DNA of 64,000 nucleotides from assembly GCF_000025625.1 (NCBI RefSeq), contig NC_013922.1, positions 1,922,001-1,986,000 of the forward strand, written 5' to 3'. Source of the stretch: Natrialba magadii ATCC 43099. GTDB lineage: Archaea; Halobacteriota; Halobacteria; Halobacteriales; Natrialbaceae. Positions 18,002 through 23,324 of this stretch are shown here, piece by piece (positions within the stretch are counted from its first letter, which is position 1; every line of letters starts with the position of its first letter). The translations under genes were made by a program, and so were the position numbers. Below the pieces are notes generated by a model. It saw only the letters and a list, made by a program, of their open reading frames with translations. It was not told where the DNA came from and ran no database searches.

Positions 18002-19102
18002 ATGGGAGAAACTACCAAAGAGAGGTCGAGGCGCTCAACCGCGTTCGTCCTCCTCGTCGTCCTCCTCGTCGGCTGTGCTGCGTTCTCGGCACCCGTCGCC
18101 GCACAGTCCGAGACGCGTACCGGCGGGACCATCACGATCGGTCCCGACGAGACTGTCGGTAGTCTCAACGCCTTCGGTGGCACCGTCGTCGTCGAGGGAA
18201 CGGTCACCGGAGATGTTAGCGCCGCCGCGGGCGACGTTCGAATCGATGGTGACGTCGGCGGCGACGTCGAGGCCGGCGCCGGAAGCGTCATGATCACCGG
18301 TGACGTCGGCGGCGACGTCAACGCCGCAACTGGTGGACTGGAAATCGCCGAGGGCGCAACGATCGGTGGCAGCCTCGCCGCCGGCGCGGGGAGTGTGACT
18401 ATCGACGGAACGATCGACGGCGACGCCGAACTCGGAGCCGAAACGACGACTCTCGGCGAGGAGGCCGCCATCGCCGGCGATCTGCGCTACGGCGGCGACC
18501 TTCAGGGAAACACTGACGCCGTCGCAGGCGAAATCGAGTACGACTCCACGCTCGGCGGCGAGTGGACTCCAACGTTCGAGCCAATCAGTTCGCTGCTCGC
18601 CTCGGCGTACATCCTCGCGCTAAATCTGCTCCTGGGAGCCGCGCTGCTCGCCATCTTCCCGCGATTCTCCGATTCCGTGGCGGGCCAGGTTTCTCAGAAG
18701 CCAGTCCGTTCCGGCCTGGTTGGGCTCGGCGTGCTCATCGGCGTTCCGCTCTTGCTGATCGCACTCGCGATCACGATCGTTGGCATCCCGTTCTCGCTCG
18801 TCGGTGGCCTTCTGTTCGCGCTGATCATCTGGATCGGGATCATCTACGGTCGGTTCGCTGTCGCGGCGTGGCTCCTCTCTGCCGGCGGGGTCGATAACCG
18901 GTGGCTCGCCCTCGTCGTCGGACTGGTCGGCGGCGCGCTGCTCGCGCAGATCCCCTGGATCGGCGGACTGCTGAATTTCCTGTTCTTCCTGCTCGGGCTC
19001 GGTGCGCTCGCTCTCGCACTGGTCCAGCACCGGCGAACGAGTCGCGAGCAGCGCCACGAGCAAGAGCCACAGCCGTACTCCCACCGTTCCAATTTTCAGT
19101 AG
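18002..19102 (+). CDS. Bactofilin-like polymer-forming membrane protein
   Basis: A Sec-type signal (residues 1-34, ending APVAAQ) precedes a regular beta-helix of short repeats such as VTGDVSAAAGDV, RIDGDVGGDVEAGAGSV and MITGDVGGDVNAATGG at about 40-170, as in bactofilin-like domains. Four or five transmembrane segments follow at 200-340 (SAYILALNLLLGAALLAIFP, LLLIALAITIVGIPFSLVGG, LLNFLFFLLGLGALALALV), then a short basic/acidic tail. It probably forms an extracellular filament-like layer anchored by the membrane part. Its stop codon overlaps the tail of the IS607 tnpB on the other strand, so the insertion may have replaced its original last codons. Confidence 0.8.
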   Translation: MGETTKERSRRSTAFVLLVVLLVGCAAFSAPVAAQSETRTGGTITIGPDETVGSLNAFGGTVVVEGTVTGDVSAAAGDVRIDGDVGGDVEAGAGSVMITGDVGGDVNAATGGLEIAEGATIGGSLAAGAGSVTIDGTIDGDAELGAETTTLGEEAAIAGDLRYGGDLQGNTDAVAGEIEYDSTLGGEWTPTFEPISSLLASAYILALNLLLGAALLAIFPRFSDSVAGQVSQKPVRSGLVGLGVLIGVPLLLIALAITIVGIPFSLVGGLLFALIIWIGIIYGRFAVAAWLLSAGGVDNRWLALVVGLVGGALLAQIPWIGGLLNFLFFLLGLGALALALVQHRRTSREQRHEQEPQPYSHRSNFQ

Positions 19103-20868
19103 CTTTCAGTAGGACACCGTAAGAAACGGGTACACTGTTGGACGACTGGGCCGCGTCCATCACTCCCATCCGCATTCGACTCGGGCAAGGCGACAGCGGG
19201 TGCTATGACAGCCGACCCACCACCAGTGGTCGCCGCTGCCTGTTCAGGTTCGTAGGCGACGATGCCAGATCCGAACGTGAGTCGCGTGCCAGCGTCAGAA
19301 CTCGCTTCTGACGAGGATCGCAGTCCATCGGACTGCTCACCAGCGGAACGGCCAGCTAGCACGATTTCAGAATCCCCCGTGTAGGAGGACGTGAAACCGT
19401 GGTCTAGCTCGTCCGTCTCGCTGAAGAACACGCGAGCTACGTTCAGTGTCCCGATGTAGTCCCGGTCGCCCTCGAACCCACACCGTGCGTTGTCACACCG
19501 GAAGTGCCCGCCCCACCAGTGTTCTTCGTGGTGGTTGGGTGACTTGCAGGTGTGGCCGGTTGAGCCACACCGGGGACACGACCGACTTGTTCCCTGTGGA
19601 TAGACTCGCTCAACAGCGAGACCGGCACACTCTGCCCGATATTCGATTTTTTCGATGATGTCCCGCCGCGCCCACGACGACAATTCCCACGACAACGTGC
19701 CTTCGTCACTCGGCGGGGAGAGCGACCGCAAGTCCTCGTGGACGATGGCGTCTACGTCGTAGGCGAGTGCAAGTGCGAGAACTTGGTTTGCGACGTCGTG
19801 TGTTAGTTGATCGCGCTTGTGCTGGATCTTGCTGTTCACTCGCTCGTACTCACTGTGGATGTGGGCGAACTCGTCAGTATGCGAGCGAGCGCCACGGCGC
19901 AACGCGGCAAGGCGGTCGTTCAGGCGGGTACGTTCGCGGTGGAGTCGTCGCATCTTCTCGCGGTCTGTGAACTGGATGAACTGTGGCGTGGATCGTTGCT
20001 CGCCATCGTCTGTGGCCACCACGACAGTCATGTCTTTTCGCATCCCGGCGTCGAGCGCCAGTACGCAGTCTGTGCCGTCAGTCGTCTCCGCGTGGTCGAC
20101 TTCGACGGGGAAGGACAGTTCGTAATAGGTGTCACCGGTCTTTCGGCGAGCGGGCTGAAACTCGGGAGCCGAGAGATCGCCGTGAGCGAGGAGGTCATGA
20201 AACGCCTCGTAGCCGTCACGCTCGTACTCCGTCCACGACCAGTCACCTCGTGTCTCCGGCGACAGCGTGTCCGGTGTCTTGAGGCGAATGGTCAGCGTCT
20301 CACTGTCGGCGTCATACTGGTATTTGACGGCTTGGCCGCTCGTTGGGCCGTCGTCCGCAGAAAACGGTAGCACGCCGCTATCGTACTCTGGACAGTCCTG
20401 CAGTTCGAAATACGTGGCAGGATGCGTGCCATGACGGTCGCAGTAGCTGGTGAGTTGGTCGATGAGGATGTCCACGTATCCCGACGAGAGGTAGTCACCG
20501 TCATCCCAGAGTTGTTCTTTGATGCGACGACGGTGGATGCGTCGGATTTTGTGGTCGGGCAACACGCTTTGGATGGACTGAAAGGCGTCTCGGCGGTCGG
20601 CGTGACTCCGGAGCGTTTCCCCGACTTTCTGCAAGATGCACCGTCGAAACCGCGAGGGGAGATACAGGTCGAGTTCTTCGAACGGTTCGTGTTCATCGAA
20701 GTATTTCCACGCCTGATGCGATGCGTCGGCAATGCCGCTCAGATGGACTGGTGTCCAGTGGTCTTCGAGGACATGGTTGGCGACACGACGGGTGAGTGTT
20801 GCCAGTCGCTTGAATCGTTTGTCGTCCTCATCTGGGAGGTGAATCGGGAGCGAGAGGTGGTCACTCAT
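19096..20868 (-). CDS. tnpB: TnpB RNA-guided nuclease of IS607 element
   Basis: The 590-residue protein has the RuvC-like nuclease core split in the usual way. Asp273 lies in CVLALDAGMRKD, Glu378 in IVHEDLRSLS, and Asp470 in EGDRDYIGTLNVAR. The zinc ribbon between the last two has CPRCG and CDNARCG. All catalytic acids are present, so it can be an active guide-RNA-dependent DNA nuclease. The canonical DxN after the last Asp is altered to DYI. It is longer than common TnpB (about 400) at both ends. The last 100 residues or so (GFTSSYTGD onward) probably overlap the guide-RNA-encoding region rather than form a domain. It starts 8 bp inside the recombinase gene. Confidence 0.9.
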   Translation of the reverse strand: MSDHLSLPIHLPDEDDKRFKRLATLTRRVANHVLEDHWTPVHLSGIADASHQAWKYFDEHEPFEELDLYLPSRFRRCILQKVGETLRSHADRRDAFQSIQSVLPDHKIRRIHRRRIKEQLWDDGDYLSSGYVDILIDQLTSYCDRHGTHPATYFELQDCPEYDSGVLPFSADDGPTSGQAVKYQYDADSETLTIRLKTPDTLSPETRGDWSWTEYERDGYEAFHDLLAHGDLSAPEFQPARRKTGDTYYELSFPVEVDHAETTDGTDCVLALDAGMRKDMTVVVATDDGEQRSTPQFIQFTDREKMRRLHRERTRLNDRLAALRRGARSHTDEFAHIHSEYERVNSKIQHKRDQLTHDVANQVLALALAYDVDAIVHEDLRSLSPPSDEGTLSWELSSWARRDIIEKIEYRAECAGLAVERVYPQGTSRSCPRCGSTGHTCKSPNHHEEHWWGGHFRCDNARCGFEGDRDYIGTLNVARVFFSETDELDHGFTSSYTGDSEIVLAGRSAGEQSDGLRSSSEASSDAGTRLTFGSGIVAYEPEQAAATTGGGSAVIAPAVALPESNADGSDGRGPVVQQCTRFLRCPTESY

Positions 20869-21487
20869 CGGGTTTTACCTCTGATTCGACGGTATTGACG
20901 ACCTGTTGTTTTTTCGATGAGCGCATCCCGTAGAGTTTGCCGCTGAAGCTGGCGACGAGCTTGATAAGGTCGTCAACGAGTTCTTCCTGTGCAGATTTGT
21001 CCGTCTCGTCTTCGATGACGGTGACTGTGACACCGTAGCAGTCGAAATACCGTTTGAGATACGAGAACCCAAAACGAGTGAGTCTATCTTCGTAGGTGAC
21101 GAGAATGCGTCCGTAGTCGGCTTCCTGTAGGTCATCGAGGAGGGAGTTGAGGCCACGGCGGTCTTCGTTGAGGCCACTGCCAACGTCGGTATAGGTGTTT
21201 TCGACGCTCCAGCCGTGGTCGTGAGCGTAGTCTGTGAGTCGCTCAAGTTGGTGGTCGAGGTCGCCGTTATCTTTCTGCCCGTGACTGGAGACGCGAGCGT
21301 AGAGTACAACACGGTCTGTCGGACGAGTATCGCCAGCAAGTCGGCGAAGTTCTCGATGTGGTATTCGTCGTTCACCGCCGGGTGTTCGGGTATAGTCGAG
21401 ATCGTCGTTGCGACACCAGCGTTTGACGGTCTGGGGGTGAACACCGAGTTCGTCTGCGAACTCGCCAATCGAGTCCGACCGCGGCAT
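20861..21487 (-). CDS. tnpA: IS607-type serine recombinase
   Basis: The 208-residue transposase has an N-terminal MerR-like helix-turn-helix (IGEFADELGVHPQTVKRWCR, then TPGGERRIPHREL) and a small serine-recombinase catalytic domain. YARVSS holds the nucleophile at Ser67, and the arginines are in GSGLNEDRRGL and ILVTYEDRLTRFGF. This N-terminal DNA-binding, C-terminal catalytic order is diagnostic of IS607. The start ATG 21487 (MPRSDSIGEF) was chosen because the reading frame upstream lies in the AT-rich leader and shows no domain. It appears intact, so the element may still be mobile. Confidence 0.92.
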   Translation of the reverse strand: MPRSDSIGEFADELGVHPQTVKRWCRNDDLDYTRTPGGERRIPHRELRRLAGDTRPTDRVVLYARVSSHGQKDNGDLDHQLERLTDYAHDHGWSVENTYTDVGSGLNEDRRGLNSLLDDLQEADYGRILVTYEDRLTRFGFSYLKRYFDCYGVTVTVIEDETDKSAQEELVDDLIKLVASFSGKLYGMRSSKKQQVVNTVESEVKPDE

Positions 21488-21688
21488 TCTGATATTACTG
21501 GTTACTACTGGTAGATACTTATAGATACTGAATTCTGTAACAGTTACATTACCCCGGCCCGCAGCGCGACCAACGGCGCCGAAGCGATCCGGACGGTCGT
21601 GACGGCTTCGATCAGGACGACCCAACAACGGACTAGCGAGACACGGGATCGCACCGTCCCGTTTGGGGAGCGCGACGGTCACGGACAA

Positions 21689-21746
21689 CAAACGACGTAC
21701 GACGAACGACGTACGACGTACAACAAACAACGAACAACAGACGACG
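21689..21746 (+). repeat. ACGACGTAC/AACAAACAACG simple-sequence tract
   Basis: Short words (ACGACGTACG, ACGACGAACG, AACAAACAAC) alternate without a strict period just upstream of the samp2 gene. No gene is visible between the IS607 left end and samp2, although 21550-21690 is GC-rich and could be the 3' remnant of an interrupted gene. Confidence 0.55.
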
Positions 21747-21777
21747 TACTCAAGTTTCACCCGCCACAACACCGACT

Positions 21778-22041
21778 ATGCGCGTCACCGTCGACGTCAA
21801 GGGCGAGGAGACACACGAGATTTCGCTCACAGACCTCCGCGAAGGGAACGGTGGCGACTCGAGTGCAGACACGACTGCAGACAAAGCGGACAAACCGACG
21901 TACGCCGACCTCCTTCGAGAGATCGACCTGAGTCCACACGAGGTGAGCGTGCTGATCGACGGGCGGCCAGTGCCGGAGGATCAGCCGGTCGAGAGCGAGC
22001 AGGTGACGGTGTTGCGGTTGATTAAGGGTGGAAGTCGGTAG
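21778..22041 (+). CDS. samp2: Ubiquitin-like modifier SAMP2 homologue
   Basis: The 87-residue beta-grasp protein matches haloarchaeal SAMP2. The N-terminal hairpin is MRVTVDVKGEETHEISL, the helix region is YADLLREIDLSPHEVSVLID, then GRPVPEDQPVES and the C-terminal QVTVLRLIKGG. SAMP2 is adenylated by the E1-like UbaA at its C-terminal diglycine, then joined to protein lysines or used as a sulfur carrier for tRNA thiolation. Two features are odd. The diglycine is followed by Ser-Arg, which must be removed before activation if the protein works as usual. There is also an acidic insert of about 18 residues (GGDSSADTTADKADK) after strand 2. It lies directly downstream of the IS607 element. Confidence 0.87.
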   Translation: MRVTVDVKGEETHEISLTDLREGNGGDSSADTTADKADKPTYADLLREIDLSPHEVSVLIDGRPVPEDQPVESEQVTVLRLIKGGSR

Positions 22042-22088: not shown

Positions 22089-23324
22089 TCAAGCGTTGAC
22101 GTGCGTCACCTCGTAGCCGTGATCACGAATCGATCGGATGATTGCTCGTGCCTGTCCCGCGCCGCTGGTCTCGATCTGGAAGTCGAGGTGTGCCTCGCCG
22201 ACGTCGAGTTCCGGTGCCGAGCGGTCGTGGCGAACCGTCTGAATGTTGGCGTTATGGTCGGCGATCACGCCCGAAATTTCCTCCATCTTGCCGGACTGAT
22301 CGTCGATCCGCACGCGAAGCCGCAGCAGTTGTTCCCGATCGGAGAGCGCGTGGACGAGCACCGTCTGGAGCATCGTCATATCGAGGTTCCCACCACAGAG
22401 TAGGGCCATCACCGTCTCGCCCTCCACGTCGAGTTCGTCGCTGATAATCGCTGCAACCGAGGCCGCGCCAGCCCCCTCGACGACCTGCTTTGCACGCTCT
22501 AACAGGAGCAAAATCGCTCGTGCAATTTCGCCGTCGGTCACCGTTACTACGTCGTCGACGTGCTCCTCGATGAGCGAGAGCGTCAACTCCGAGACGCCGC
22601 CGGTGGCGATACCGTCCGCGATCGTGTTCACCGACTCGAGTGAGATCGGCGTTCCCTTCTGGAGGCTATCGGGAACAGTGGCCGCGTCGGTCGCCTGCAC
22701 ACCCACGACGCGCGTCTCGGGCGACCGCTCGGCGAACGCGGTTGCGATGCCAGCGATGAGGCCGCCGCCACCGATCGGGACGACGACGGTGTCCACCTCC
22801 GGCAGATCCTCGTACATCTCGAGACCAAGGGTGCCCTGGCCGGCGACGATCGCCGGGTCGTCGTAGGCGTGGACGAACTCGGCGTCGGTGCCGGAAACGA
22901 GGTCTTCCGCGAAGTCCATGGCCTCGCGGAAGTCGGTGCCGACGAGTTCGACATCCGCGCCGTATCCTCTCGTCGCGTCGACCTTCGCCTGTGGTGCGGT
23001 GCGGGGCATGACGATGGTCGAGTCGATACCGAGGTTCGTCGCGGCGAGTGCGACACCCTGGGCGTGGTTGCCCGCGCTCGCGGCGACGACGCGCTCGGTT
23101 TCGTCCTCGGTGACACACTGGGCGATTTTGTTGTACGCGCCGCGAGTTTTGAACGAGCCCGTCCACTGGAGGTGCTCCATCTTGAGGAACACCTCGCCAC
23201 CGGTCAGTTCGTCGAGCGACGTGCTCCGCTCGATGGGCGTTCGCTTGACGACCGACTCGTCGTCGAACCGGTCGCGAGCGGCCTCGATATCGGAAACGTC
23301 GACGGATCCTGAATATTGCGCCAT
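22089..23324 (-). CDS. ilvA: Threonine dehydratase
   Basis: This PLP enzyme deaminates threonine to 2-oxobutanoate for isoleucine synthesis (or threonine breakdown). The PLP site is KMEHLQWTGSFKTRGAYNKI with its Lys at about 61, followed by ASAGNHAQGVALAA, the glycine loop VVPIGGGGLIAGIA, and SDE/LLCGGNLD near the end of the catalytic domain. A single C-terminal ACT domain at about 330-411 (LRVRIDDQSGKMEEISGVIA) suggests feedback control by an amino acid. ATG 23324 starts MAQYSGSVDVSDIEAARDRF. It converges with samp2, and the two stops lie 48 bp apart. Confidence 0.93.
   Translation of the reverse strand: MAQYSGSVDVSDIEAARDRFDDESVVKRTPIERSTSLDELTGGEVFLKMEHLQWTGSFKTRGAYNKIAQCVTEDETERVVAASAGNHAQGVALAATNLGIDSTIVMPRTAPQAKVDATRGYGADVELVGTDFREAMDFAEDLVSGTDAEFVHAYDDPAIVAGQGTLGLEMYEDLPEVDTVVVPIGGGGLIAGIATAFAERSPETRVVGVQATDAATVPDSLQKGTPISLESVNTIADGIATGGVSELTLSLIEEHVDDVVTVTDGEIARAILLLLERAKQVVEGAGAASVAAIISDELDVEGETVMALLCGGNLDMTMLQTVLVHALSDREQLLRLRVRIDDQSGKMEEISGVIADHNANIQTVRHDRSAPELDVGEAHLDFQIETSGAGQARAIIRSIRDHGYEVTHVNA

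Follow-up and report, generated by a model that had tools for sequence, protein, structure and literature searches.

SAMP2 of Natrialba magadii is encoded with residues after the diglycine, and such tails in Halobacteria occur together with the desampylase

In the closest described systems, JAMM-type proteases act on ubiquitin-like proteins (Ubls) of archaea. HvJAMM1 frees SAMP2 from its conjugates (PMC4048286), and it cuts SAMP1-MoaE after the glycine, which activates it in vivo (PMC4443979). In Caldiarchaeum subterraneum, CsJAMM cleaves the SAMP precursors (PMC6043591). That JAB proteins would free ThiS/MoaD from fusions was already a prediction in 2006 (PMC1779556), and the neighbour genes described by Makarova and Koonin in 2010 were GNAT in Halobacteria and peroxiredoxin in Thermococcales (PMC2948915). 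As far as its text was available, the open-access literature yielded no report of haloarchaeal SAMP2 tails or of SAMP2-peroxiredoxin or SAMP2-GNAT fusions.

The window, which is the whole stretch of 64,000 nucleotides of N. magadii DNA that was analysed, contains a samp2 gene (Table 1). The initial annotation had the protein ending in IKGG-Ser-Arg, and this was confirmed by translation: the product has 87 aa with the C-terminus LRLIKGGSR followed by the stop (GGT GGA AGT CGG TAG, 22027-22041). It matched NCBIfam NF041919 (SAMP2) with an E-value of 7.8e-34 (116 bits against a cut-off of 70) and Pfam PF21965 with 1.7e-30 (105.7 bits against a cut-off of 27), and the Haloferax SAMP2 structures 2l32 and 4hrs were matched with E-values of about 1e-20. 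That Haloferax SAMP2 ends in the diglycine also held true, as GG are the last residues of chain 4hrs_A and the Haloferax loci stop at GG. A SAMP2 in the strict sense stops at GG, like that of Haloferax. Because the encoded end here is GGSR, the N. magadii protein was filed as a SAMP2-family precursor.

Table 1. Coordinates of samp2, its neighbours and the related machinery in N. magadii. Positions are those of the window unless preceded by C1.
Feature	Position	Strand	Basis
samp2, 87-aa SAMP2 precursor	21778..22041	+	NF041919, PF21965
Acidic insert in a loop (residues 20-40, approximately), probably disordered	21835..21897	+	alignment; low pLDDT at 25-27 and 31-35
Diglycine codons GGT GGA; mature C-terminus proposed to lie here, with cleavage following the second Gly	22027..22032	+	sequence
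Two-codon tail Ser-Arg, AGT CGG	22033..22038	+	sequence; identical in L002-L004
Stop codon TAG of samp2	22039-22041	+	sequence
Upstream gene, probably truncated	18002-19102		alignment with three relatives
IS607-family element (transposase and TnpB-like protein)	19096-21772	-	
IS607-family transposase, immediately upstream of samp2	20861..21772	-	NF033518, 233 bits vs cut-off 110
ilvA (threonine ammonia-lyase), convergent, ends 48 bp downstream of samp2	22089..23324	-	TIGR01127, 461.5 bits
Desampylase (HvJAMM1-type JAMM/MPN+ metalloprotease)	C1:1561056-1561400	-	NF041370, 150.4 bits vs cut-off 130
UbaA (E1)	C1:1430816-1431538	-	NF047750 equivalog, 491.5 bits vs 450
L084/L087, E1-JAB frame	C1:343859-344980	+	ThiF (E1) and JAB matches
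L142, SAMP1-type Ubl	C1:2747978-2748238	-	NF041918, 96 bits vs 60

A comparison of the C-terminus with relatives, which had been set as a check beforehand, showed that the GGSR end is common to four Natrialba species. The end AGT CGG TAG is identical codon for codon in Natrialba sp. SSL1, N. hulunbeirensis and N. chahannaoensis (L002, L003 and L004), and SAMP2 of N. taiwanensis, N. asiatica and N. aegyptia stops at GG. Because the assemblies of three other species carry the same codons, sequencing error and private mutation are both rejected as the source of GGSR, and with the former also a true stop directly after the diglycine. The idea of a redundant, decaying copy beside a second full-length SAMP2 was also rejected, since one single SAMP2 place was found in the source genome (4.44 Mb in four contigs). 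Pairwise comparison of the four GGSR species gave dN/dS values of 0.09-0.24, and these values well below 1 indicate that samp2 is maintained. In an alignment of 28 SAMP2 sequences, both the core and GG were invariant.

The extra acidic insert described in the initial annotation is real. It is, however, a common loop of the family, as similar loops were found in tail-less SAMP2 relatives in the same 28-sequence alignment, and a link between the tail and the insert was ruled out for this reason. In the AlphaFold2 model of N. magadii SAMP2, strands and a helix of the beta-grasp type form a confident core, with a pLDDT of about 90 except in the insert and at the C-terminal end; the final three residues and some stretches of the insert were modelled with low confidence. 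The predicted fold is of the beta-grasp type, which is also what homology to 2l32 and 4hrs indicates. Directly upstream of samp2 lies an IS607-family element, and an alignment with three relatives suggests that this element separated the upstream gene from its C-terminal part and left the remnant just before samp2.

The desampylase gene of N. magadii is located far from samp2, and its product has an intact HxHx7SxxD motif (HTHPNGPARPSETD), which we take to be the JAMM active-site motif. The genome encodes two further JAB-domain proteins: L083, a Prok-JAB, JAMM2-like protein, and L084/L087, a frame of 772 residues that matches ThiF (E1) as well as JAB. Besides SAMP2, three SAMP1-type proteins were found; two of them end at GG, and the third, L142, ends in PPVAGG plus a 19-residue tail rich in Gly, Ala and Ser, which makes two of the four Ubls found in this genome tailed. 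According to the available text of the N. magadii genome paper, the genome has four SAMPs, two UbaA and one E1-JAMM protein, and tails are not mentioned in that text (PMC3403918).

Among 81 SAMP2 loci (that of N. magadii and those of 80 relatives), 23 were tailed after GG and 58 stopped at GG. SAMP2 was present in 383 of the 391 sampled genomes of the class, with a single match per genome except in two. Two DNA patterns detected tails in at least 65 of the 391 genomes (45 and 20, respectively), representing 24 genera and five families; this number is a lower bound, because the patterns require the conserved core GANGG..CCNGTNCCNGA..GNNTNRTNNNNGGNGG and miss tails beginning with Cys, Tyr or Trp. 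The named relatives (L002-L081) overlap with the class genomes, and the two sets of counts were kept separate and never summed. Contrary to the rarity implied by the initial annotation, tails occur in no less than a sixth of the sampled class members. There were 66 tail places, one genome having two, and 50 of these tails had 12 residues or fewer. The tail sequences vary among genera (SR, SA, EQ, RA, RWD, SSPR and others). The first tail residue was hydrophobic or Pro in one of 35 genus-unique tails compared to an expected 30%, a difference confounded by the pattern of stop-codon mutation and by a search blind to Trp, Tyr and Cys.

Some further features of the sampled loci were observed. A second diglycine closes three SAMP2 tails (TGG in L111, RGG in L120 and SPSAGG in L137). 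The two SAMP2 places L136 and L141 lie near opposite ends of one contig in one genome; their matched 3' cores are identical, and a small change after GG results in different tails; the two places probably result from overlapping contig ends and an error in the assembly. No SAMP2 match was obtained in eight of the 391 genomes (G014, G186, G299, G309, G313, G315, G316 and G345), and all of these except G315 match the desampylase model.

In 14 genomes, SAMP2 was fused in frame to more than 100 residues beyond GG. The partner was a peroxiredoxin-like (AhpC/TSA) domain in 12 genomes of four genera and a GNAT acetyltransferase in two genomes of one genus, as determined by Pfam scans in five proteins (L091, L114, L123, L146 and the partner in L115) and by reading and a seven-sequence alignment in the others. 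In many unfused relatives, the families of the fusion partners are the usual neighbours downstream of samp2, with the gene order samp2, peroxiredoxin, GNAT. Genus g37, equated with Halorussus on the basis of matching tails, had tails in all eight sampled genomes and fusions in seven, and GG was kept in all of them. The predicted model of one fusion consisted of two confident domains and a disordered linker beginning just before GG. An internal GTG start at the conserved Val before the fused peroxiredoxin was checked: the codon is mostly GTC, and the linkers of 12 of the 19 fused loci contain no ATG, GTG or TTG; the other seven do contain one, and separate synthesis of the partner is conceivable in these.

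The HvJAMM1-type desampylase was taken as present when NF041370 matched with an E-value of 1e-5 or better, which was the case in 296 of the 391 class genomes (289 above the cut-off of the model). Of the 383 genomes with SAMP2, 65 had both a tail and the desampylase, none had a tail without it, 224 had the desampylase with a tail-less SAMP2, and 94 had neither. The number 224 is an upper bound, as the patterns miss some tails; with up to 224 such genomes, the tail is dispensable in desampylase-positive species. To cover divergent genes that might have escaped the tail pattern, the SAMP2 of the desampylase-less genomes was also read directly by coordinates in 63 of the 94 (62 + 1 genomes), and all 63 stopped exactly at GG. 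The occurrence of tails only in protease-carrying species suggests, at the level of genome comparison, that SAMP2 is synthesised in a longer precursor form and then trimmed.

We consider it likely that SAMP2 is a pro-protein matured by the desampylase cutting after GG. The gene would be translated as a SAMP2 pro-protein, a desampylase of the HvJAMM1 type would cut after the second Gly and remove Ser-Arg, and the exposed Gly carboxylate would then be adenylated by UbaA, leading to sulfur transfer to tRNA and to conjugation. Since the enzyme is barely selective for what is joined to the SAMP2 glycine, residues after GG, from one or two up to a whole fused protein, would be tolerated where the desampylase is kept, and species having lost it would have to stop exactly at GG. 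For N. magadii itself, we infer that SAMP2 is cleaved and that this cleavage is required. Of the two readings offered in the initial annotation, the JAMM-trimmed precursor gained support from the counts (65 of 65 tailed genomes with desampylase, 63 of 63 desampylase-less genomes at GG), while impairment by a stop-codon mutation is disfavoured. In a wider form, to which we give slightly less than an even chance, pro-SAMP2 maturation would be a housekeeping task of the desampylase, the 3' end of samp2 would be free, wherever this enzyme is retained, to drift and to capture the next gene, giving polyproteins split after GG in several haloarchaea, and loss of the desampylase would lock the end that stops at GG.

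The short tail might instead be harmless and removed by general carboxypeptidases, or it might be trimmed by another JAMM paralogue, and the HvJAMM1-type enzyme would then not be specifically needed. The trimming enzyme could indeed be another one, because L083 and the E1-JAB frame L084 are JAMM-like as well, and most tails (42 of the 66 places) consist of only 1-4 residues. However, the association is with NF041370 itself, which is present in 65 of 65 tailed compared to 224 of 318 untailed genomes, and in the 14 fusions a carboxypeptidase could not detach the partner domain with GG left in place. We therefore regard this explanation as unlikely.

The co-occurrence could also be phylogenetic, if lineages that happen to retain the desampylase acquired tails on a few occasions; there would be no functional link, and the tail might stay on. 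Both traits do cluster by lineage, and the statistics weakened when relatedness was considered: the genome-level Fisher P of 2e-9, which is inflated by relatedness, became 1e-4 when stratified by family and 0.003 or 0.0005 by genus within family, depending on the counting of mixed genera, and within single families P was 0.04-0.4, or 1 where uninformative. These values were computed for one trait pair, SAMP2 tail against NF041370. Nevertheless, the tailed genera number 24 in five families, none of the 18 wholly desampylase-less genera is tailed, and the tails differ in sequence between genera, which implies many origins; a purely phylogenetic association thus appears quite improbable. Finally, samp2 could be impaired, with adenylation blocked by the stop-codon mutation and the function lost or taken over, and an untrimmed tail should indeed block UbaA-type enzymes, which act on the C-terminal Gly carboxylate, but for a single-copy gene with a low dN/dS, an invariant GG, an intact core and the same GGSR end in four species this is scarcely credible. 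The same blocking argument has been made for Ubl fusions (PMC4443979).

The available parts of the literature treat the haloarchaeal desampylase as a deconjugase and not as the maturation enzyme of natural haloarchaeal SAMPs. If the tails are trimmed by the desampylase, this apparently dispensable enzyme would, in a predictable way, be essential to tailed species. Moreover, ubiquitin-like maturation and Ubl-partner polyproteins would have evolved repeatedly in a well-sampled archaeal class, and the gains and losses of the protease in nature would provide a control for that evolution.

In eukaryotes, pro-ubiquitin, SUMO and the ubiquitin-ribosomal protein fusions carry short tails or partners after the diglycine, and the processing of these precursors is mainly the work of cysteine-protease DUBs or SENPs. 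The SAMP2-peroxiredoxin and SAMP2-acetyltransferase polyproteins, if split after GG, would be an archaeal parallel to the ubiquitin-ribosomal protein fusions. In the thioquinolobactin system of Pseudomonas, two residues after the GG of QbsE are removed by the JAMM protease QbsD, although the open-access literature yielded no paper describing this step; unlike SAMP2, QbsE is a sulfur carrier of a bacterial siderophore pathway, and the system is encoded in one gene cluster. The SAMP2 (HVO_0202), UbaA and HvJAMM1 of Haloferax volcanii represent the same family, E1 and desampylase as in N. magadii, and the cut made by HvJAMM1 follows the SAMP glycine. In Haloferax, SAMP2 stops at GG, in contrast to the GGSR of N. 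magadii, and for this reason the desampylase is known there for deconjugation and not for maturation. In the Ubl-MoaE (MoaD-MoaE) fusions of Crenarchaeota and bacteria, such as the substrate of DRJAMM in Deinococcus, a Ubl and its partner likewise require a JAMM cut for activity (PMC4443979, PMC8832034), but the Ubl family and the partners are different, the haloarchaeal partners being peroxiredoxin-like or GNAT domains on SAMP2. In Caldiarchaeum subterraneum, which belongs to a different phylum, archaeal Ubls with residues after GG are likewise cut by a dedicated JAMM protease (SAMP by CsJAMM and the CsUb precursor by CsRpn11), and the SAMP gene Csub_C0702 is numbered next to CsJAMM Csub_C0703 (PMC6043591). 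In N. magadii, by contrast, the protease gene lies far from samp2, and the haloarchaeal tail is optional between species.
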